Part shown: piece after piece, positions 3,739 to 32,659 of the stretch | How the letters are laid out: the number at the start of each line of letters is the position of its first letter | How positions within the stretch are numbered: the first letter of the stretch is position 1 | Source: a virus | Length of the DNA: 34,055 nucleotides | Reading direction: 5' to 3' (one strand) | Virus record (IMG/VR): IMGVR_UViG_3300030117_008021 | Location: 35,055-69,109 of that record | Position numbers and translations under genes: made by a program | Notes under the pieces: model-generated | Seen by the model: the letters and a program-made list of their open reading frames with translations, nothing else | What the model was told of the DNA's origin: nothing | The model's database searches: none

Positions 3739-3746
3739 TATTTATA
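3739..3746 (-). promoter_or_regulatory. Possible T4-type late promoter (TATAAATA)
   Basis: The minus strand reads TATAAATA, the exact -10 consensus of T4 late promoters read by a gp55-type sigma factor. It lies 31 bases upstream of the ATG at 3708, a sensible distance. The same 8-mer occurs elsewhere in this AT-rich window, including on the silent plus strand, so a chance match is quite possible. Confidence 0.25.
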
Positions 3747-5076
3747 AAACTTTTGAAGCTAACGTTGCTAGCTCGCTTCTTTCGCCTTTGCGAAATGTTA
3801 CATGACCAGCAATTGGATATTGTTTAAAGCTTTCAATTGAGTGTGCTAGACCATTTGATGTTTCGTTAACGTAGATATTATCTATTTGTTCAATATCACC
3901 TGTTAAGATAATTTTAGTTCCATCACCAATACGAGTAATAATAGTTTTAATTTCATGTTTTGTTAAATTTTGCGCTTCATCAATTACAACAAACGCGTTA
4001 GCAATCGAACGGCCGCGGATATATGTAAGGGCTTCAATTTCAATCTTGCCCTTTTCCATATACATCTCTAAACTTGTCCTGTCTCCCATCAAAAATTTTA
4101 GGTTATCTTGAATGGGCATCAGCCATGGCAGCATTTTTTCTTCCATGGTGCCTGGGAGAAATCCAATATCTTTTCCAAGTGGCTGTACAGGTCTAGAAAC
4201 TATAAGACGCGAGTAATGATTGTTTTCGGAGCGTAAACCAATTGTTTGTTGTAGACCAGCAGCTATAGCCATTAAAGTTTTACCGCTTCCGGCTCGACCA
4301 ATCAAAGAAACAATTTTAATGTTAGGATCCATTAATAAATCCATAGCAAAAGCTTGTTCCTTATTTCTTGAATTAATATTCCAATCCGGTAGCTTATCAT
4401 GAATTATTTTTTTCAACGGCATGTGGTGACTTTGAAAGCGAGCTAAAGCGGTTTTTTTCTCATTAGCGTTAGATACCATCATAAGAAACTGATTTGGGTG
4501 CCACAATTCATTTACTTCATCTTCTTCAATAAGAATATCTTCACTATCATAAAAACGATCGATAATTTGATCATCTACTAGGTGCTCAACAAAACCGCTA
4601 TACAGCTGATCAGATGATTCTGCTGCTTTTTCGGTGATATAATCTTCCGCAATCATGCCAATAGAATCACAAATAACACGCATGTTAATATCTCTTGATA
4701 CCACAATCATTTTTCGATTTGGTTGTTCATGCTGAATTGCTTTTGCTGTGGCCAATATAACATGATCAGGAATTCTGATATCTAAATCAGGAGGAAAAAT
4801 AGAACCACTTAGCGATGCATACGACATAACTTTTACTATGCCTTTGCCTTTTCCTAATCGAACTCCTTTTTGAAGATCACCTGTTTTTCTTAATTCATCT
4901 AAAGTTCTTATAATGCGTCTGGCATTTGAGCCTACAGAATCTTGACGTTTTTTATGTTTGTCAATTTCTTCAAGAACTTTTAAAGGAATAAATATATCGT
5001 GATTATCAAAACGAAATACAGCGTCTGCATCCGTTAGGTAAACACTTGTGTCTAATAGATAGTTCTTTTTTGCCAT
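3742..5076 (-). CDS. phoH: PIN-PhoH fusion ATPase (PhoH2-like)
   Basis: 444 residues in two domains. Residues 1-150 are a PIN-type nuclease domain, with acidic residues D9, E37, D104 and D129 in the expected order (LLDTSVYL at the start, VVSRDINMR near 129). Residues 230-440 are a PhoH P-loop ATPase with Walker A GRAGSGKT (260-267) and Walker B FVVIDEAQN (362-370), followed by the family sequence TGDIEQID. PIN-PhoH (PhoH2) proteins are described as ATP-dependent RNA helicase/RNases. phoH is common in marine phages, but its role there is unsettled. The stop is followed at 3739 by a late-promoter-like TATAAATA, and the start at 5076 abuts the thymidine kinase stop, so the two are probably one transcript. 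Confidence 0.88.
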   Translation of the reverse strand: MAKKNYLLDTSVYLTDADAVFRFDNHDIFIPLKVLEEIDKHKKRQDSVGSNARRIIRTLDELRKTGDLQKGVRLGKGKGIVKVMSYASLSGSIFPPDLDIRIPDHVILATAKAIQHEQPNRKMIVVSRDINMRVICDSIGMIAEDYITEKAAESSDQLYSGFVEHLVDDQIIDRFYDSEDILIEEDEVNELWHPNQFLMMVSNANEKKTALARFQSHHMPLKKIIHDKLPDWNINSRNKEQAFAMDLLMDPNIKIVSLIGRAGSGKTLMAIAAGLQQTIGLRSENNHYSRLIVSRPVQPLGKDIGFLPGTMEEKMLPWLMPIQDNLKFLMGDRTSLEMYMEKGKIEIEALTYIRGRSIANAFVVIDEAQNLTKHEIKTIITRIGDGTKIILTGDIEQIDNIYVNETSNGLAHSIESFKQYPIAGHVTFRKGERSELATLASKVL

Positions 5077-5652: not shown

Positions 5653-5727
5653 TGGAGCGAGTGACTGGATTTGAACCAGCGACAGCCACGTTGGCAACGT
5701 GGGGCTCTACCACTGAGCTACACTCGC
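5653..5727 (-). tRNA. tRNA-Gly (GCC)
   Basis: The minus strand folds as a full tRNA: acceptor GCGAGTG/CACTCGC, a D arm with AGCTCAGTGGTAGAGC, anticodon stem CCACG/CGTGG with loop TTGCCAA (anticodon GCC), and T arm GCTGG-TTCAAAT-CCAGT. A discriminator T and a genome-encoded CCA follow. It lies one base after tRNA-Thr, so both probably come from one precursor, and 12 bases upstream of the thymidine kinase gene. Confidence 0.95.
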
Positions 5728-5728
5728 G

Positions 5729-5804
5729 TGGAGCCACTTATAGGAGTCGAACCTACGACCTGCTGATTACAAATCAGCTGCTCTACCAACTGAGCTAAAG
5801 TGGC
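5729..5804 (-). tRNA. tRNA-Thr (UGU)
   Basis: Minus-strand cloverleaf with acceptor GCCACTT/AAGTGGC, a D arm, anticodon stem GCTGA/TCAGC around loop TTTGTAA (anticodon TGT), a T arm with GGTTCGACTCC, and encoded CCA. ACA is a common Thr codon in an AT-rich phage. The neighbouring Thr-rich lipoprotein (5883-6110) uses many Thr codons, which may or may not be relevant. Confidence 0.95.
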
Positions 5805-13571: not shown

Positions 13572-13908
13572 TGGTGGAAGCGGCGGGAGTCGAACCCGCG
13601 TCCACGATACCTCAAAAGGCAAGTCATTCACAAGCTTAGTCAATTTACTATCACCTATTGACAAAGATAGATGGCTATAAGATATCGCTTACCACCCTGT
13701 TGCGATAAATAGTTTGATTTTTATAACTTGTCTGTTATTTTGATTAGATTGGATAGAAGGCTCTAATCAGCCTCCTCGATTAAGCCGCTAAGCGTGCTGC
13801 TTCGAAATGTGTGTTGTTATTTGCAACTATTGTTTTGAACTATTAAGGTTGTATCTTACCTACTTGCACTCGACTTCATCCTTACCCTGTCGAAGCCATT
13901 TCGCTCCC
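13572..13908 (-). ncRNA. ssrA: tmRNA (one-piece, phage-encoded)
   Basis: 337 bases. The tRNA-like ends pair as GGGAGCG (5', 13908-13902) with CGCTTCC (3', followed by ACCA). The 5' part has ATGGCTTCGACAGGG, as in bacterial tmRNAs, and the 3' part has the T arm GCGGG-TTCGACT-CCCGC. The encoded tag runs from GCA at 13824 to TAA at 13780 and reads ANNNTHFEAARLAA, ending in LAA like most ClpXP-directed tags. TAGTT precedes the resume codon, much as in E. coli. tmRNA with SmpB frees stalled ribosomes and tags the partial protein. No SmpB gene is in the window, so host SmpB would be needed. Alanine charging should read the acceptor region. Confidence 0.96.
13780..13824 (-). other. tmRNA tag-peptide reading frame
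   Basis: Fifteen codons inside the tmRNA, GCA to TAA, give the tag ANNNTHFEAARLAA. The first codon is Ala and the last residues are L-A-A, the ClpX-recognised end. The middle (N-N-N-T-H-F-E) is unlike the acidic E. coli tag, so SspB binding may differ. Confidence 0.93.
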
Positions 13909-14452: not shown

Positions 14453-15418
14453 TCAAACAGCTTCAGGTTGTGTTTGCTTATTATCTCCTTTAACCATATC
14501 ATATCCTGCTTTTGCAACAGGCGCTATAGTTTTACCAGCTTTCCATAAACCTGATATCATTCTTAAAGCACCAAGACCTCCAGCTGTCAAAACACCTAAA
14601 CCAGGAAAAGCTATATTTAAAGCAACACCAGATGCCATGCCAATCAACAATTTTGTAAACCAACCTTCTTCTATTAATTCCATTATGGTAAAATTACCTG
14701 CCAGCGCTGCCAAAATAATCGTTGGTTGAAACATAGGACTTTGCCCGTTGACAAGAGCAAAAATCCATAAACCCAGCAATATACCACAAATACCAAGCCT
14801 AGTAAGATAGCCTTTTGAATTTCCAGTTACTTGATCATAACAAAGATTAGCTTTTCTTTCTTCTGGATCGCAAACTTCATCTTCGTTGCCTTTCTTATCA
14901 CCCATAATTTCTACTTCTTCTTTTTTAATATTGTTAATCCAAATTTTGACAGCTTCAGTTGCTTTATCGGCGGCTGGTACTTTTTTTACAATAGCAAAAA
15001 GATCTTTTTGAATTGCCTTAATAAGGCCATATGCGGTATCGAAAATTTCTTTAAAACTTGATAGAGACCAATCTATAATTTCAAAAAGTTTATAAAATAA
15101 TCCATTCCATGAAGTAAGTAATTTATAAAAGCCTTTGGCTGATGTGCCAATTGCTTTGGCTAGATTTTTTACTGTTTTCCAAATATTTGAAAACCACCCT
15201 TTTTTAGGAACACCTTCTTCTTTATCTTCTTGATCTACTTCAAAAAGAAAATTGTGTTTGGTTGATTCTGATAAAACCATAAACTTTTCGGCTCTTTGGC
15301 AAAACTTTTCATATCTTTCATCAAGTTTTTCTAAATCTATCGATGAAGAATTAGCGTAATGGCGCCAGTTCTCCATGATTAAATTCATAGAATTGCAGTT
15401 TAAAGTTTTTGTTCTCAT
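14453..15418 (-). CDS. Membrane-embedded putative virion protein with MENWR peptide
   Basis: 321 residues. The N-terminus carries MNLIMENWRHYA at residues 11-22, related to the MKLLMENWR peptides of the 25608-27083 genes. Amphipathic helices follow (about 85-160), then three hydrophobic segments: ICGILLGLWIFALVNG, TIILAALAGNFTI and LLIGMASGVALNIAFPGLG. An (L/I)xE site in FLFE60 could be a prohead-protease cleavage point. The layout (targeting peptide, helical linker, membrane part) suggests a protein packaged in the head and delivered to the host membrane. It is adjacent to, and built like, the gene at 15433-16821. No enzyme motif is seen. Confidence 0.62.
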   Translation of the reverse strand: MRTKTLNCNSMNLIMENWRHYANSSSIDLEKLDERYEKFCQRAEKFMVLSESTKHNFLFEVDQEDKEEGVPKKGWFSNIWKTVKNLAKAIGTSAKGFYKLLTSWNGLFYKLFEIIDWSLSSFKEIFDTAYGLIKAIQKDLFAIVKKVPAADKATEAVKIWINNIKKEEVEIMGDKKGNEDEVCDPEERKANLCYDQVTGNSKGYLTRLGICGILLGLWIFALVNGQSPMFQPTIILAALAGNFTIMELIEEGWFTKLLIGMASGVALNIAFPGLGVLTAGGLGALRMISGLWKAGKTIAPVAKAGYDMVKGDNKQTQPEAV

Positions 15419-15432
15419 AATATTTTAGGTAC

Positions 15433-16821
15433 TTATCTAGCAATTTCAACAACTTTTGGTATTAAATCGTCTCTGCCGGCGTTTCTTAAGGCTTGAGTAA
15501 GCTTTTGAACGTAAGGTATATATCCTGTTGGACCATGCGGATTCGGTCTTTTTTCCATTAAAGCTTTTACTCCTTCAAGAATGTCTTCATCGCTTAAAAC
15601 TTCTATTTGTGGAGGAACCTGATCACCGATCGGATATTTAAAAATTTTCTCAAACATCGATGCAGTTTCAGTTGCATTCATAGCTGCTTCAGCGCCAGCG
15701 CCAGCCGCACCAAATTCAGGGTGATCGCCTACCTTTCCAGATTCAAACCACTCTATATGCCCTTCAGCTTTTGCTTTTGCTTGTTCATATGACTGTTTAT
15801 ATCCATCTAATCGTGCATATATTTGATCTGTGTTATCATATGCATCTTCAAGCGCTTTTTGCTCTTCTGGTTTTATTTCTCCATAACCCATGGCTGGTTC
15901 CCCTGCGGCCTCCCAATCTGCTTTAGCTTGCTTTGCTGTTTGTACGGCATCAATATATTCTTGTTTTTGTTCTCTCATTACTTTTACAGCTGCTAATGAT
16001 GCTGTATCGCCATATTCAAAAACTGCACGAAAATCATTTAAATCAACTACTTCGCCTCTTTTTGCTGCGTTATAACAAGCAGTTAATGATGCTTGAGCTT
16101 GTGTATATGCTTGAGCCTCTGCTTTGTCAACACCTCCTTTAGCTTCTTCAAGAAACCCCATCGCTCTTTGATAATCACCTTCAGACAAAACTTCACCAGC
16201 GACAATACATTTACCTTCTACTTCTGTTACTGCACCAATTGCTTGTGTACATAAAGGCTGGTCGCCGGCCGCTTCTGATTTATTTCGTAATTTTTCAAGA
16301 TAATTTACAACTATGGTAGCAATTGCAACAAGAGCAAGTATTACCAAGCCAGCCACAACTATTTTAAAAAGTGTTGGAAATTTAGTTTTGAATTTAACAA
16401 CAAGTTTGAAAATCCAAGACATTACTTTCCATACTACATTTTTTGCTTTTTTTACAAATCTTCCAAACATGTTGACACCCTTGTTAACAATATTTGATAA
16501 TTTGTTTACAATTCCTGGCGATGGAACTTCTTGCTCTTTTAGTAAAGAAGCTTTGTAAATGCGATTAAATTCTTGCACTTCATAAAGCCAAGATTTTTCT
16601 AGTATAGATTCAAGTTGTTTTTCTGTAAGTTTTTTAGAATCAAATTTACGCTCTATTTCGTCTAACAACACGACTGTTGGAACAGAATTGTTACTTTCAA
16701 ATAAATAAACTTTATTATCTGCTGGTCCTCCCATATCATCTAATACGTTTTGAAATCTTCTAAAGTTTTCCATAATCATATGCATGGAATTAGGATTATT
16801 ATTTAATGGTTTTCTTCTCAT
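15433..16821 (-). CDS. Putative virion protein with MENFR peptide, one TM helix, Ala-rich helical tail
   Basis: 462 residues. Residues 13-23 read MHMIMENFRRF, a divergent copy of the shared MENWR peptide. YLFE42 offers an LxE cleavage site. One strong membrane helix, FKIVVAGLVILALVAIATIV, lies near residue 160, and the rest is Ala/Glu-rich helix (QAYTQAQASLTA and similar), probably elongated. The first six residues and overall plan resemble the 14453-15418 product, suggesting paralogy. Its start overlaps the stop of the acidic protein gene by 4 bases. The role is unknown; internal head or ejected protein is my best inference. Confidence 0.62.
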   Translation of the reverse strand: MRRKPLNNNPNSMHMIMENFRRFQNVLDDMGGPADNKVYLFESNNSVPTVVLLDEIERKFDSKKLTEKQLESILEKSWLYEVQEFNRIYKASLLKEQEVPSPGIVNKLSNIVNKGVNMFGRFVKKAKNVVWKVMSWIFKLVVKFKTKFPTLFKIVVAGLVILALVAIATIVVNYLEKLRNKSEAAGDQPLCTQAIGAVTEVEGKCIVAGEVLSEGDYQRAMGFLEEAKGGVDKAEAQAYTQAQASLTACYNAAKRGEVVDLNDFRAVFEYGDTASLAAVKVMREQKQEYIDAVQTAKQAKADWEAAGEPAMGYGEIKPEEQKALEDAYDNTDQIYARLDGYKQSYEQAKAKAEGHIEWFESGKVGDHPEFGAAGAGAEAAMNATETASMFEKIFKYPIGDQVPPQIEVLSDEDILEGVKALMEKRPNPHGPTGYIPYVQKLTQALRNAGRDDLIPKVVEIAR

Positions 16822-17600
16822 AGTTCAAACTCCAGTTCTTCTTCTCCGCCTAAATCCAATTCATCTCCACCGGCTGGCTCTTCTTGTTTGGCTGTATCAT
16901 ATGCTTGATTGCTTGGCTCATCAACCTTTCCGGCTAATTCGCCTTCAAACTTATCAAAATAAAGTTTAAGATTGGCAATTAAGTAATCATAAAACAATTC
17001 TTGATCTTCTGGATTAGAAAGTAGTTCATAAGAATCAATAATGCTATTTTCAACCTTTTTAAAACTATTGTAAGCCATATTGCGACCGGTTTCATCGCCC
17101 TCTACACCAGCACCAAAATCATCACGTGGATCAGTCTCGTCAGACTCTTCTTCAGCTTTCTTTTCTGCGTCTGTGCGAATGTCAATAAATTTATCATCCT
17201 CACCAGTTATGTCAATATCAATAACTTCATCTAAATCTTGTGCCTTATCATCAGCTTTATTATTAATTTTTGCGGGAGTAAGTGTGTTAATAACAGCATT
17301 AATAATATGTGCCCTAAAGGATTGTCTTTGAGATTCATCAGTGGTTAGAGATTTGAAGTCTGCTTCTAAAACAGGAATAATTTTCTTTAATAGTTCTTCA
17401 AGAACATTAATTCCAGTTGATTTATTTGGCGCTGGATCTACATCAGGTGTAGAAGACTCAGACAGCATGCTTTTTAATTCTAATCTAAGTAACTTTTTTA
17501 ATGACTTACGAATTTCTTTTTCTTCGTTTAGTTTTTTTGCCTTGACATGTCGAATCAAATAACGTATATTTTCTCTTAAAACTTGTTCATCTTTATTCAT
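16818..17600 (-). CDS. Acidic hypothetical protein, 260 residues
   Basis: Basic helical N-terminus MNKDEQVLRENIRYLIRHVK, then a very acidic middle (DLDEVIDIDITGEDDKFIDI) and an acidic C-terminus ending GGEEELEFEL. Its N-terminal L-R-E-N-x-R pattern resembles the MENWR peptide, with L8-R-E10 a possible cleavage site. Acidic, helix-rich phage proteins of this kind can be scaffold or internal proteins, but I do not recognise this family. The gene overlaps the ligase-NMNAT gene by 4 bases (ATGA) and the next gene by 4, so it is coupled on both sides. Confidence 0.6.
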   Translation of the reverse strand: MNKDEQVLRENIRYLIRHVKAKKLNEEKEIRKSLKKLLRLELKSMLSESSTPDVDPAPNKSTGINVLEELLKKIIPVLEADFKSLTTDESQRQSFRAHIINAVINTLTPAKINNKADDKAQDLDEVIDIDITGEDDKFIDIRTDAEKKAEEESDETDPRDDFGAGVEGDETGRNMAYNSFKKVENSIIDSYELLSNPEDQELFYDYLIANLKLYFDKFEGELAGKVDEPSNQAYDTAKQEEPAGGDELDLGGEEELEFEL

Positions 17601-19645
17601 TTTGCGATGCCTCTTTCCATAATTAGTTTAATAATATCGTCAACAAGATTTAAGTCAATATTTTCTTGTCTAATAATAGAGTTTTGTTTTTTCTTTTTAC
17701 TACCACCAGCAACATTACCACCTGCCATACCTGATAATTCTTCTAAATTTTCTATTCCTAAAATTTTTAAAACACCATCAACATTATCGCCAGCAAAATC
17801 CATTAGTTGTTCTTTATTTGCTGAAATATCTCCTAAGAGATTTCTCATATCCGTGGCGCTAAAAGGTTCACCACTTGGTCTAATAAGAGGTTCAACCGCA
17901 CTTTCCATTGGAGGTACAAGATTTAAATCACTTCCTACGTATCGATCAGCTCCCGTCCAACGTTTTGCGTCTCCGCCTTTATTACTAGCGCCTAAAATAA
18001 TTGTATCTCCAGCACTAATCGGATCCATGCCCATTTTTTCTGCAGCTTTTTCTCGCTGCCCGGCCTTTCCGCTAATTTCATAAGCTGCGTTTATTGGAGA
18101 AGCGTGAGATGATTCATAGACTTCTACTTTTGGATTGGCTCCCACAAACAGATTCCAGATTTGACGAGAGTGATCAGCGGTGATTTCTTTTCCATTTGGA
18201 AGTTTTCTAGCATTTTTAGTAGGGGCTGAAATCAAAACTATAACTCGATTAGCAACTTGAGCATATTGCTCTACCATGTTAACATGGCCCATGTGAGGTG
18301 GTTTAAAAGCGCCTGGAACAATTGCAATCGTTTCATTCTGCACAGGCTCGTTTTCAAATTCCACATCAACAACAGGATCTTCTAGTTCATCTTCAATTTC
18401 TAAAACTAATTCATCTTCAAGTTCTTCTGACATGCCAGAACGTCTTGCTCGACCAATAATTTGATTTGCCATGGCAAAAGCGCCAGTTAATTTATAAATG
18501 CGATCAGAACCTGGAGGGTATTCAAATACAACGCCTTCAAGAGATGATGCAAGGTTTTCTATTTTACCTAATTTTGCCAATTGTTTATCAACTAGCTCAC
18601 CCATTTTTTCATCACCAGAGCTTTGTAAACTTTTTAAATATACAATTGACTGTTGAAGTTCACTACGCATGCGCTCAACTTCTTCATCATGCTCATCAAC
18701 AAAAAAGCTTTTAACACCGCGCAAAACTTCAATAGCAAAATCACTAATTGCAATTTCTAATGGTCTCAATACAGAAGCAATATATTTTCTTGATTTTGTT
18801 TTTGAGCCTAAGTTTGAAACAACTGATTGTAGCTCTTTAGGTAAACCTTTCTTCAATCCTGTAACTTTAATACCACGTTCTTTGGCTCCATCTGGATCTA
18901 ACATTAGCATCAAAAGAGGCTCCAAAATGTTTTCTGGGAGTCCAACCTGCTCAGTATATTTTTTAACAACTAAACCAACATAATCACCTAATGTTGCATT
19001 CATACCTACAGGAGATGCAAATCCTTGTATTTTAGATGCAACTTCTTCAAGTGCTGAGCCATCTGCTAATTTTTTTAAAGCAATTATTTTAGGACCGTGT
19101 ATGTTCCAATCTTCTTCGCCGACATTTTGTTTACCCCCGTCTACTGCTTTAACTAAAGAATAAAACTTTTCTTTTGCTAAGCTTCGTTGTTCTGAGCTTT
19201 CGTCATCTCCAAAATATTGCAATCCGTGCAAAACTATATTAGGTGCAGAATAAGATATAATGTTAGGGTTTGCAGGATACATTATCTCCATGTTAACGTA
19301 TCTCTGTCCGTTTGAAAAAATATCCTCAAGTGTTTCTGGGCTAAGCTTTTTTAAAGCGGCTGAAATAGCTTTAAAGCCGTTTGTAAAAGCATTTTCTGCT
19401 GGGTGTCCCTTCCATTTGCTAATATATTCATCGGTAGTCATACCACCTTTTTGCACATCGCCATTATTGCGAGCTGTGCGTATTTCTCCATTAGCAACAG
19501 TTAAAAATAAATTTTGACCATCAACTTTTTCAGTAGTATTTTTTATATCTGCGGCCGCAACTTTAGAAAGAATGCTAACTATCTCATTAAAAGTTAGATC
19601 CAAGTCTTCTGATAAATGGGCCATGTGCCCAGCGACACCGCCCAT
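17597..19645 (-). CDS. Fusion: ATP-dependent ligase-like domain plus NMNAT-like nucleotidyltransferase
   Basis: 682 residues. The N-terminal part has ligase/capping nucleotidyltransferase motifs: K40-V-D-G43 (motif I, lysine that takes AMP), RTARN (56-60), VNMEIMYP (117-124, motif III-like), LEGVVFEY (369-376, motif IV) and K385 in YKLTG (motif V). A long insert separates III and IV. The C-terminal part (about 438-640) is a Rossmann nucleotidyltransferase with PGAFKPPHMGHVNM (H451-x2-H454) and PFSATDMRNLL, like the S-x-T-x-x-R motif of NMN adenylyltransferases. It may ligate RNA ends and make NAD. An acidic linker joins the halves. Start at 19645 (MGGVAGHMAHL), with AAGG upstream; M8 is an alternative. 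Confidence 0.75.
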   Translation of the reverse strand: MGGVAGHMAHLSEDLDLTFNEIVSILSKVAAADIKNTTEKVDGQNLFLTVANGEIRTARNNGDVQKGGMTTDEYISKWKGHPAENAFTNGFKAISAALKKLSPETLEDIFSNGQRYVNMEIMYPANPNIISYSAPNIVLHGLQYFGDDESSEQRSLAKEKFYSLVKAVDGGKQNVGEEDWNIHGPKIIALKKLADGSALEEVASKIQGFASPVGMNATLGDYVGLVVKKYTEQVGLPENILEPLLMLMLDPDGAKERGIKVTGLKKGLPKELQSVVSNLGSKTKSRKYIASVLRPLEIAISDFAIEVLRGVKSFFVDEHDEEVERMRSELQQSIVYLKSLQSSGDEKMGELVDKQLAKLGKIENLASSLEGVVFEYPPGSDRIYKLTGAFAMANQIIGRARRSGMSEELEDELVLEIEDELEDPVVDVEFENEPVQNETIAIVPGAFKPPHMGHVNMVEQYAQVANRVIVLISAPTKNARKLPNGKEITADHSRQIWNLFVGANPKVEVYESSHASPINAAYEISGKAGQREKAAEKMGMDPISAGDTIILGASNKGGDAKRWTGADRYVGSDLNLVPPMESAVEPLIRPSGEPFSATDMRNLLGDISANKEQLMDFAGDNVDGVLKILGIENLEELSGMAGGNVAGGSKKKKQNSIIRQENIDLNLVDDIIKLIMERGIAK

Positions 19646-25607: not shown

Positions 25608-26270
25608 CTATCCACGTATGTAATTATATAGTTCTTGATCTGATACTTCATCTTTTCTATGATTGTGGTTTTTAATTTGTTGCATTAGTTCTGTATCACT
25701 CATTTTAAATAATACTTGTGGCCCAATTCCACTTTGCATGTTTGCATTTAAAGTTAAAGATAATAATGCATCAGCAATTGCTACAGAGGCTTCTTTGCCT
25801 GAGCTTTCTTTAATAAGTCCTTCGCGCTTTGCATAATCTGGAATAAACACTTGCGTTTCACCACCTAGTAAATGATCAGGAATGTCTTTACGAGAGTAAG
25901 AAGGAATTTCTATTTCTTCCTCTTCTTTTTCTTCAGGGTATTTCAAGCCGTATTTTTTCATGTATTCTTGTTCGCTTTTTGTAAGCGCTTCAAACGTTCT
26001 GCCTTTGAGTGCTCTTTGTAAAAGTATTTCAAGAACATCTTGTTCGGTAATGTCTGGGTCTTGATTAAAGACTTTAATCATTCTCCATACCATTGGAACA
26101 CGCGCCATTAACATAGCGGCCTGCCTATTAACAAATACTCTTGGGTTTTCTACTTCGGGATAAAATTCACTTTTTCCCATTTTATCAAGAACTGTATTAA
26201 CTGCTGCGTCCTTCTCAAACACACTAATCTCTGTTAAATACTGTCGCCAATTTTCAAATAGGAGTTTCAT
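25608..26270 (-). CDS. Capsid-targeting-like peptide plus unknown 206-residue domain
   Basis: 220 residues starting MKLLFENWRQYLTE, the same first 14 residues in type as the next two genes upstream, with LTE14 as a possible prohead-protease cut. The rest is helical with charged stretches (EKEEEEIEIPSYSRKDIPDH). No catalytic motif, cysteine pair or membrane helix is recognised. By analogy with T4 internal proteins it could be packaged and injected, but its function is unknown. GAGGTTATAA upstream of ATG 26270 acts as ribosome site. It overlaps the ADP-ribosyltransferase-like gene by 17 bases. Confidence 0.65.
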   Translation of the reverse strand: MKLLFENWRQYLTEISVFEKDAAVNTVLDKMGKSEFYPEVENPRVFVNRQAAMLMARVPMVWRMIKVFNQDPDITEQDVLEILLQRALKGRTFEALTKSEQEYMKKYGLKYPEEKEEEEIEIPSYSRKDIPDHLLGGETQVFIPDYAKREGLIKESSGKEASVAIADALLSLTLNANMQSGIGPQVLFKMSDTELMQQIKNHNHRKDEVSDQELYNYIRG

Positions 26271-26634
26271 TTATAACCTCCACTTGATCATAATCCTTGA
26301 TGAAAACATAACCACCGGGAAGCTCGACGTAATCATCACCTATAACTTTCATAGTTATAACCTTGCCATATCCTTCAGCATTTTCTCTATCTTTTGTCGC
26401 GTTAATCCCAATGGTTGCCTCTTTCGCCCATTGAGGGAGTTCTGTCTCCTCATCGAAACCTCTTTCTATAGCGTAGTTCATCACTTCTGAGTCTTTGGGA
26501 ATAATGTCCTTGGTAAGAGACAACTGCCCGGTTTCCAAATATTTATCATATACAAAATCTGGTATACCTCGATATACAATCAGGTCTTCACCCTCATTCA
26601 AATACTCTCGCCAATTTTCCATTAAGAGTTTCAT
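26254..26634 (-). CDS. ADP-ribosyltransferase-like protein with capsid-targeting-like peptide
   Basis: 126 residues. After MKLLMENWREYLNE (possible cut after LNE14), the body fits a small R-S-E ADP-ribosyltransferase: R22 in VYRGIP, an N-A-T-K-D-R-E-N-A-E-G-Y-G stretch (78-90) in the S/T-x-x position, and Q117-V-E119 as the Q-x-E end motif. These enzymes move ADP-ribose from NAD to an arginine (or other residue) of a target protein. T4 Alt is a capsid-packaged ADP-ribosyltransferase that modifies host RNA polymerase, a close functional parallel. The fold assignment is by motif order only. The stop and start overlap neighbours by 4-17 bases, so the three genes are coupled. Confidence 0.6.
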   Translation of the reverse strand: MKLLMENWREYLNEGEDLIVYRGIPDFVYDKYLETGQLSLTKDIIPKDSEVMNYAIERGFDEETELPQWAKEATIGINATKDRENAEGYGKVITMKVIGDDYVELPGGYVFIKDYDQVEVINETPI

Positions 26635-27083
26635 CTTAAAACTTCCTCAACTTTTCCACAAACCTCAATAGGATCAATTGGTTTGTAGTCTTGCTCTCCA
26701 AATTCATTAGACATTGCTGGTTTACCACCAGCTTCTGGATTGGTGGCAATTGTGATATGCGGAAGACCTTCAATTTTGTTATAAAGGTTTTGACTTTCTG
26801 CATCAACTCTCACGGCAATAACGCGCTCATTTTGCGCTATACCTGTAATCGTTAAACATCCTTCATAAAATTGATCAGTTGGCAAACGTTGCTTTTGTTC
26901 TGTCGGCGGGATCATCGTCATGTGATGTGCATATACCTTCCAACCTTCGGGCGCTAGCTGTGCTAGTTTTTGATGCGAGGCTTCATCTAAAATAAATCCC
27001 GTATACTCAATTGATTTTGCCATGTCGTGCCCCATGGCAACTTCATTTACATACTTCCGCCAATTTTCCATTAAAAGTTTCAT
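26631..27083 (-). CDS. 2H phosphoesterase-like protein with capsid-targeting-like peptide
   Basis: 150 residues. MKLLMENWRKYVNE (possible cut after VNE14) precedes a domain with two H-x-T motifs: H54-M-T56 in AHHMTMIP and H109-I-T111 in LPHITIAT, the paired catalytic motifs of 2H phosphoesterases (LigT/CPDase superfamily). Such enzymes open 2',3'-cyclic phosphates or cut cyclic oligonucleotides. T4 Acb1, an anti-CBASS enzyme of about 150 residues, is in the same superfamily. A role against host cyclic-nucleotide defence or in RNA end repair is inferred. It overlaps the ADP-ribosyltransferase-like gene by 4 bases, and abuts the LamG-like gene. Confidence 0.65.
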   Translation of the reverse strand: MKLLMENWRKYVNEVAMGHDMAKSIEYTGFILDEASHQKLAQLAPEGWKVYAHHMTMIPPTEQKQRLPTDQFYEGCLTITGIAQNERVIAVRVDAESQNLYNKIEGLPHITIATNPEAGGKPAMSNEFGEQDYKPIDPIEVCGKVEEVLR

Positions 27084-30957: not shown

Positions 30958-32211
30958 TTACTTACCTTTTTTACTATATTTACCTGAACACTTCCATTTT
31001 TGTCTAGAAAGGCATAAAGGCGTCCCTCTATCTTTTCCAGAGCAATCTTTTCCGTGAGATTTCATATCTCCATAAGATCTAGCGCAGTATGCGTTACCTT
31101 TTCCAGTTCCAGGTTTAATTCTTGGACCCCCACCTTTTGCTTTGCCCGATTGACCATAAGAAACACACCTTCCTTTGACTCTTCTGGCAAATTTTTTACC
31201 TTTAGATGGTTTGCATGCCTTCTTTTTCTTGGCTTCTTTAAGTTCTTGTTCTTCATCTAAAAGCCCATAGTATAGTGCTTCCTCTAACATGCTTTCAATT
31301 TCTTCATAAAGAGCAATTGATATCTTTTTATTTTCGTCGCCATAAGTTTTACAAGGATCTTGGCCACACCCACAGTTTTTCATCTCATAAAGGTCTTTGT
31401 TTTCTTCTACGGGCACACAATTTGGAACCATTTTGCCGCCTTTATCTTTCATTCCTACTTGTTTATAGCCGTCCCAGCATTTTTCTGTTAGTACTGCTTC
31501 CTCTACTTTCTTATCTTTAGGGTCTTCTGTCTGATCTAGGATTTTTTTGATGCGATCAGACTGGCCTTTATGCATTTTTGAAGCTCCTGCAAGCTCATCA
31601 CTAATTTTTTCAAGCTCTTTTTCGTGTTTAGCTGAGTGAGTTTCAAGTAAAACTTGCGACAATTCATCTTCAATCATAATTTGAAGTGATTCTTTCTTAG
31701 AGTTACCCCAATTTTTAGCGCCAACCTTGCGACATTTAACCAAAGCACCGGATGCATATGCACTTGGCCACACTTTATAGCGAGATTTTACCTTATGATA
31801 GCATGCATCTTTTTTACCAGACTTCTTTTTCTTCTTTTTCTTTTCATCAAGAACAGCTTCAAGCTCTTCAGCTACAATTTTTTCTAAACTCATGTATAAA
31901 TCCTCATTTTTCTTTGATTTTTTCTTTTTTTTCTTGTCAGTAGAGACATACGTTGGCTTTGCAGCGCCTGATTTTTGTGGCTGGCCAGGATCTGCTTCTC
32001 TTTTTCTTCGTTGTGCAGATTCGCGTTCTTTCTTAGACATGCTAGCGCGCTTTGCAGACGATACACACTTAGGTGTAGTTTTCTGTCCAGGCTGTCTTGC
32101 ACATGGTTTTCCTGAAACTACTTGAACCCAGCCCGGCTTTCCGCCTTTTGATTTAGATTTGCTAAACCAATCTCTTAAATTTTCAACTATTTCGTCGTAA
32201 AGATCTTCCAT
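30958..32211 (-). CDS. Lys/Cys-rich DUF5872-like protein
   Basis: 417 residues from ATG 32211 (MEDLYDEIVENLRDW), chosen over an upstream TTG because AGGATTTGATAAAA gives correct spacing. Three small Cys-containing modules are separated by poly-Lys/Glu linkers: KPGWVQVVSGKPCARQPGQK then KCVSS (DUF5872-like); DACYHKVKSRYKVWPSAYAS then KCRKVGAKNWG; and a C-terminal part with KWKCSGKYSKKGK. Such Lys-rich, Cys-pair proteins are frequent in marine phages and giant viruses and may bind DNA or RNA. I-V-E10 is a possible prohead cut. It overlaps the Nudix gene by 29 bases. Confidence 0.68.
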   Translation of the reverse strand: MEDLYDEIVENLRDWFSKSKSKGGKPGWVQVVSGKPCARQPGQKTTPKCVSSAKRASMSKKERESAQRRKREADPGQPQKSGAAKPTYVSTDKKKKKKSKKNEDLYMSLEKIVAEELEAVLDEKKKKKKKSGKKDACYHKVKSRYKVWPSAYASGALVKCRKVGAKNWGNSKKESLQIMIEDELSQVLLETHSAKHEKELEKISDELAGASKMHKGQSDRIKKILDQTEDPKDKKVEEAVLTEKCWDGYKQVGMKDKGGKMVPNCVPVEENKDLYEMKNCGCGQDPCKTYGDENKKISIALYEEIESMLEEALYYGLLDEEQELKEAKKKKACKPSKGKKFARRVKGRCVSYGQSGKAKGGGPRIKPGTGKGNAYCARSYGDMKSHGKDCSGKDRGTPLCLSRQKWKCSGKYSKKGK

Positions 32212-32659
32212 TTTTATCAAATCCTGCTAATTTTAAAGCTTTCTTCAATAAATAGTTAGGTATTTCGCTATTCTCAAGCTCTTTTATCTCTTCGATTGTT
32301 AGCCATTTATAAGCGTCATGCTCAATTTCACCCGTCTCTGGATTGGGTCTGTCAACATTTACGTTTCCGCTCCACTTTTGAGTCAAAAAATAGTGTTTGT
32401 CAGGCTTTGGTTCGCCTAAGTATGTCAAATCAGAGATTTTGCATGTTAGACCAGCCTCTTCATTAAGCTCTCTGACAGCACCGGCCTCGATAGAACCGTC
32501 TTTTTCATCAACATGACCCCCTGGAAGTGTCCATTCACCCTCTCGATCATCAATATCGGAGCGCCTAATAACAAGAAATTGTTGCTCATCGTTAAGACAG
32601 GCAACAACTCCTACTGTTTTTAACTCACCTTCGGTGAGAAATTTGTTCCATTTGGTCAT
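32183..32659 (-). CDS. Nudix hydrolase with short N-terminal extension
   Basis: 158 residues. The Nudix box is GGHVDEKDGSIEAG then AVRELNEEAGL; it has one extra residue before the REL-x-EE-x-G core relative to the G-x5-E-x7-REU-x-EE-x-GU consensus, so catalysis should be checked. The N-terminus MTKWNKFLTEG carries a W-x-K-F-L-T-E pattern akin to the cargo peptides (cut after LTE10). Nudix enzymes cleave nucleoside diphosphates linked to another group, such as ADP-ribose, NADH, dinucleotides or mRNA caps. It overlaps the protease gene stop by 4 bases. Confidence 0.8.
   Translation of the reverse strand: MTKWNKFLTEGELKTVGVVACLNDEQQFLVIRRSDIDDREGEWTLPGGHVDEKDGSIEAGAVRELNEEAGLTCKISDLTYLGEPKPDKHYFLTQKWSGNVNVDRPNPETGEIEHDAYKWLTIEEIKELENSEIPNYLLKKALKLAGFDKNGRSLRRNS

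Follow-up and report, generated by a model that had tools for sequence, protein, structure and literature searches.

Bacteriophage T4 injects Alt and a set of internal proteins tagged with a capsid-targeting sequence (CTS) into its host; in the CTS of internal protein IPIII (MKTYQEFIAE), residues 4 and 7 serve in targeting and residues 8 and 10 in processing, and the gp21 protease cuts after L/I-x-E (PMC9026906). For 2H phosphoesterase domains, packaging via fusion to MuF or portal proteins was predicted earlier (PMC9503650, section 3.4.5), and comparative work on jumbo phages assigned 2H and HAD_SAK proteins to the clearing of RNA ends ahead of ligation (PMC7824862). The 2H enzyme Acb1 has a C-terminal lid (residues 145-152, with W147) and reads adenine by E141 (PMC9117128). 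Its gene in T4 (57B, coding for the untagged gp57B) lies directly beside the CTS-bearing ipI gene (L265:3592-4411), i.e., a 2H gene adjoins an internal-protein gene. The principle of delivery is therefore already known, and the expectation of a new mode of delivery in the initial annotation of the locus presented here was too strong. New are a variant of the leader, its breadth and its 2H cargo, which has not been described in such a form in the papers searched.

The window analysed comprises 34,055 nucleotides of a 69,109-base IMG/VR virus fragment (IMGVR_UViG_3300030117_008021). Among the features on its minus strand are a tmRNA (13572-13908; full-length Rfam match with 113.9 bits, E 5e-44; ARAGORN tag peptide ANNNTHFEAARLAA), side-by-side genes for tRNA-Gly (gcc, 5653-5727) and tRNA-Thr (tgt, 5729-5804), a PIN-PhoH-like protein recognised by eye (3742-5076) and a 682-aa protein with a nucleotidyltransferase-like domain (17597-19645), which matched NMNAT/cytidylyltransferase PHROGs with E values of 4e-5 to 2.5e-4. 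The gene for the 2H phosphoesterase (P0001, 150 aa) reads from an ATG at 27083 to 26631 on the minus strand, stop codon included, and the plus strand contains many stops there. The two H-x-T motifs reported in the initial annotation were confirmed on this strand as H54-M-T56 (26916..26924) and H109-I-T111 (26751..26759) with a spacing of 55 residues, and aligning the homologues additionally revealed a family signature, G-G-K-P-x-x-S-N, at residues 119-126 (26706..26729, minus), the S and N of which are invariant. The 34 aligned homologues share Y27, H54, T56, H109, S125 and N126 without exception and keep T111, G119-P122 and H53 at 90% or more, which argues against a chance occurrence of the motif pair. 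The protein scored 30.4 bits (E 3.5e-7) in the Pfam family PF08302 (tRNA_lig_CPD), for which 23 bits are required, and some distant 2H homologues stayed under this cut-off. The match to PF22547 (2H-SAK) was weak, with 14.9 bits under the curated cut-off of 27, and membership in the Swiss Army Knife 2H group was dropped for this reason. Searching with a small alignment, we found 38 loci with 2H relatives on viral contigs and no relatives of the 2H domain on bacterial and archaeal genome contigs, and cultured phages yielded weak relatives only (Lak, Phosso, Atu_ph07). A PDB sequence search produced no credible match, the profile matches being attributable to chance.

In the AlphaFold2 model (pLDDT 86.9), residues 24-150 make up a 2H domain predicted with confidence, and the leader forms a helix at low confidence. 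The model shows the two-lobed 2H fold, and its nearest solved structures are all 2H enzymes, which together with the invariant or near-invariant motifs upholds the assignment to the 2H superfamily. The catalytic domain of CNPase (1woj) ranked first in VIA-align (Z 12.5, 2.3 Å, 125 residues) and the fungal Trl1 KIN-CPD (6u05) second (Z 9.5), while lower scores, in a range under about Z 8 that indicates superfamily likeness only, went to Acb1 of FBB1 (7t27; Z 7.9 across 109 residues), to 1fsi, the Appr>p CPDase of Arabidopsis (Z 7.3), and, at about Z 7, to LigT-like proteins. Among predicted viral structures, the top matches came from giant viruses (proteins with lengths of 771 and 765 aa), and one of them is named RNA ligase. 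Although likeness in fold does not settle the substrate, this ranking bears on the first function offered by the initial annotation, an injected anti-CBASS enzyme. Such an Acb1-like nuclease would destroy cyclic di- or trinucleotide signals of immunity or a different cyclic oligonucleotide, e.g., the cOA of type III CRISPR. The protein indeed belongs to the same superfamily as T4 Acb1, with HxT pairs in common and a similar length, Tyr27, an invariant residue of its first strand, may match Acb1 Y12, and head-packaged 2H domains were proposed to act on signals (PMC9503650). However, hhalign against T4 Acb1 gave a probability of 3.8%, amounting to no detectable profile similarity, and aligned the HITLxYN stretch alone. 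The Acb1 lid and E141 have no counterpart, nearly all members of the family ending after the last strand, and strand 134-149 of the model ends the chain without leaving an Acb1-type lid. The structural comparison called for by the initial annotation thus placed Acb1 at a greater distance than either CNPase or Trl1.

The genetic company of the homologues points to RNA ends. Two of them are C-terminal to a fused AAA_33 kinase (L209, L218), in the same order as in Trl1 and CNPase, two others are fused behind a CCA-adding enzyme (L219, L229), and in L215 the 2H gene adjoins the gene for such an enzyme. A HAD_SAK_1 phosphatase gene is located directly downstream of the 2H gene in three loci (L222, L224, L230) and near it in two (L209, L217); some homologues are the C-terminal part of giant proteins whose N-terminal region looks kinase-like by eye. 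The adjacency of several homologues to HAD_SAK_1 and the weak 2H-SAK match are features shared with the Swiss Army Knife HAD/2H RNA repair proteins (PF10307, PF22547), from which the phage protein is set apart by its score under the 2H-SAK cut-off. CNPase and the Trl1 CPD share with it the two HxT motifs, the best fold match and, in homologues, the kinase fusions, whereas the phage form is compact (136 aa), stands alone, and has its own GGKPxxSN signature and a leader predicted to be removable. Searches of six tagged records (G000, G001, G003, G010, G011, G018) found neither an RNA ligase (Rnl1, Rnl2, RtcB), even in those of 185-205 kb, nor HAD_SAK_1. The lack of a recognisable ligase suits an anti-CBASS enzyme and weakens the case for a full repair pathway, in which the final joining would fall to a ligase of the host or to one not recognised; support is accordingly stronger for the catalytic class than for the pathway. 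Based on the Pfam match, the fold ranking, the RNA-related fusions and the HAD_SAK and CCA partners, as well as the lack of an Acb1 lid, we favour an RNA 2',3'-cyclic phosphodiesterase of the CNPase/tRNA-ligase-CPD clade, with RNA ends as the presumed substrate. The RNA-end alternative of the initial annotation has thus gained ground, and its anti-CBASS proposal fits less well; we regard the latter as unlikely, even as the strongest of the rival explanations.

The 2H protein begins with a capsid-targeting-like leader, MKLLMENWRKYVNE (27042..27083, minus), with a predicted cut after E14. The next gene on the same strand (26254..26634, 126 aa) starts with MKLLMENWREYLNE and is possibly ART-like as judged by eye (YRG...NATKDRENAEGYG...QVEVI), and a third consecutive gene (25608..26270, minus, 220 aa) starts with MKLLFENWRQYLTE. 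The window contains three copies of the degenerate DNA for MK[LIMF]3ENW[RKQNH], one at the first codons of each of these three genes, and none was present in 100 shuffles. A further rival explanation takes ADP-ribose 1'',2''-cyclic phosphate (Appr>p), or some small cyclic nucleotide akin to it, as the compound opened by the enzyme, in concert with co-injected ART-like and NUDIX proteins. A NUDIX protein of the window bears a CTS-type leader (see below), a polyvalent-type ART is encoded near the 2H gene in L217, and the Arabidopsis CPDase does align with the model. Nevertheless, the ART-like neighbour in the window is a guess by eye, which had no database match and gave an unusable structure model (pLDDT 39), 1fsi ranks well under CNPase, and the 2H fusions are to RNA enzymes. 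We consider an ADP-ribose-type substrate improbable, placing it behind the anti-CBASS function.

To define how widely the leader occurs, viral contigs were scanned with a pattern that fixed M1 to W8 and, loosely, residue 9, so that conservation at positions 1-8 is imposed by the search. The pattern was found at least 333 times in the loci fetched, on at least 191 families (4-mer overlap under 25%, scan matches listed being pooled with other loci), which bears out the cargo tag of the initial annotation. Outside the fixed pattern, position 11 is Y or F in 177 of the 191 families among the matches listed, position 12 is L, I or V in 166 and position 14 is E in 156; all three coincide in 148, the background for [YF][LIV]xE being 0.14% per position. 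Conservation stops past E14 in the tagged families listed, and [LIV]xE is present within residues 9-22 in 92% of the leaders vs. 10-23% of control stretches. The 2H protein of the window has V at position 12, as do 18 of the 191 families among the matches listed, which departs from the L/I-x-E reported for T4 gp21 and speaks somewhat against cleavage, and its orthologues in L001, L002 and L003 have I, I and L, respectively. 2H homologues without the tag begin at the tag's end point. The exact ENW leader was not found in Mel-JY01, immuto, RM378 or T4, tblastn did not match the tag in cultured phages, for which the 22-aa query is a poor test, and the leader sequence was printed in none of the open-access papers searched. 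Two ideas were discarded: TATAAATA, located 59 bases upstream of the 2H start, occurs no more often than expected by chance, whether in the window or ahead of tagged genes, and was dropped as a late promoter, and a tag confined to one clade was dropped because the tree needs at least five changes of the ENW/T4-type tag state, with several branches weak and with L201/L202 and L215 coded as untagged yet carrying another leader type.

Counted back from the glutamate, W8, Y/F11, L/I/V12 and E14 of the marine leader reproduce the spacing of Y4, F7, I8 and E10 in the T4 CTS. An N-terminal scan for [WYF]xx[WYF][LIV]xE returned four matches in T4 (0.9 expected), including IPII and IPIII, and 6-12 matches in the records G000, G001, G003, G010 and G011 (0.1-0.5 expected), a few of which are chance starts; two cultured relatives gave one match each. 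A leader of the 10-residue T4 type, MTKWNKFLTE, is present on a NUDIX hydrolase of the window (32183..32659, minus), homologues of which have short or long leaders (MTKWGKFLTE, ...SWKGFLGE, MKLLLEKWRRFLFE), and homologous nucleotidases begin with MNDKWKKYLSE or MKLLLENWRRFLNE. Because these homologues swap long and short leaders while W-x-x-[YF]-[LI]-x-E is mostly kept, the working core appears to span about seven residues, with the preceding sequence free to drift. This geometry has to be weighed against the view that the leader is not a CTS at all, but anchors the protein to some other part of the virion, or that it serves translation or recombination and has been copied from gene to gene. 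In line with copying, the leader DNAs are rather similar, preferring CTC-CTA-ATG/CTT at codons 3-5, 82 of the 191 tagged genes among the matches listed share an ATGA with the stop of the preceding gene, as would be seen in an array that arose through duplication, and a few leader-like proteins have no cut site. On the other hand, third codon positions vary synonymously while the amino acids are kept, conservation ends at the cleavage glutamate, the same geometry recovers IPII and IPIII in the T4 control, and several lineages with other leaders retain the [LIV]xE end. A leader of non-CTS type therefore seems the least probable of the rival explanations. Leader-like starts also occur in the window on two larger proteins on the minus strand, MNLIMENWRHY... 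(14453-15418) and MHMIMENFRRF... (15433-16821); these have no [LIV]xE cut site and are possibly targeted yet uncut.

A protease and capsid protein of the T4 type, gp21 (Peptidase_S77, PF03420) and gp23, are encoded in five related records (G003, G008, G009, G010, G011). With G018, which also contains gp21, the six gp21 records include all four over 180 kb; the related records without gp21 and gp23 are fragments of up to 103 kb, and neither was seen in the window's own 69-kb fragment. The gp23 proteins of G003 and G011 have an LLRE/A site ahead of the conserved core. By eye, the gp23 propeptide in L026 and L029, LLENQAKELLRE/A, resembles the leader (LLMENWRKYLNE), which may mimic the scaffold-binding region of the capsid protein. 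As in IPI, IPII, IPIII and Alt, which T4 injects, a short N-terminal leader ending in aliphatic-x-E is thus attached to diverse proteins, with aromatics at E-6 and E-3 as in the CTS and a gp21-type protease in related records; it differs by its usual length of 14 residues, its ENW core, its presence on at least 191 families instead of a handful, and its 2H cargo. MuF- and portal-fused 2H domains (PMC9503650) are likewise predicted to be packaged and injected, but as fusions to structural proteins, whereas a small, presumably cleaved leader would serve here. The packaging supposed by the initial annotation is likely in view of the CTS geometry and the gp21 genes of related records, and prohead targeting, cleavage and injection of the 2H protein would follow the T4 example.

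Around 2H homologues elsewhere, consecutive unrelated genes share another leader, and the 2H gene wears the local one, e.g., MKSFKQYIxE in L231, MxLLREYIRELLxE in L200 or M[NK]FKxW[LI] in L205. The version in L201 and L215, MxWxx[IL]LK, ends in K and has no E; it may differ from the signals of gp21 type and be processed by another protease or by none. Leaders therefore vary by phage lineage while the 2H cargo is retained. Pfam and PHROGs searches over 150 tagged families identified protein kinases, GNATs, NUDIX proteins, a DEDDh exonuclease, an M23 peptidase, HAD nucleotidases, PNK-like and ParB-like proteins, a papain-like toxin domain and two CPD-type 2H members, and left the majority of the families without a match. 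One tagged protein (L240:4001-4516) contains FHVTLAH and FHVSLAN motifs of a different 2H-like kind, so the tagging of 2H cargo has apparently happened repeatedly.

The explanation we prefer, on balance somewhat probable, is a two-part protein consisting of a capsid-targeting leader cut by a gp21-type protease and an injected 2H enzyme acting on RNA 2',3'-cyclic phosphates. Residues 1-14 would dock the protein into the core of the assembling prohead, where the phage's prohead protease would cut after E14, and the remaining 136 residues, a compact phosphoesterase, would be packed alongside the DNA and set free in the host. There, the targets of the enzyme would be the 2',3'-cyclic phosphates that metal-independent RNases of the host leave on tRNAs or other RNAs, and it would hydrolyse them with the two histidines acting as general acid and base and the threonines holding the phosphate; CNPase-like chemistry would yield a 2'-phosphate. 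In this way, the phage might heal the damage of anticodon nucleases, or silence its alarm, before expressing its own genes.

In a wider sense, and with about even chances of being correct, uncultivated T4-like phages may possess a plug-in injection system, in which any gene gaining a leader of about 14 codons is packed and delivered. Leaders would be specific to lineages, and the cargo (2H/CPD proteins, HAD nucleotidases, kinases, GNATs, NUDIX and ART-like proteins, exonucleases) would move between them, with the 2H enzyme as an injected first responder against RNA-cutting immunity. If true, RNA-end processing, hitherto thought to be made during infection, would arrive together with the DNA. 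T4 provides few such injected proteins for comparison, whereas a 14-residue rule would then reveal, with no need for virion proteomics, the arsenal that a broad group of uncultivated phages injects, comprising about 190 families, most of them unknown.
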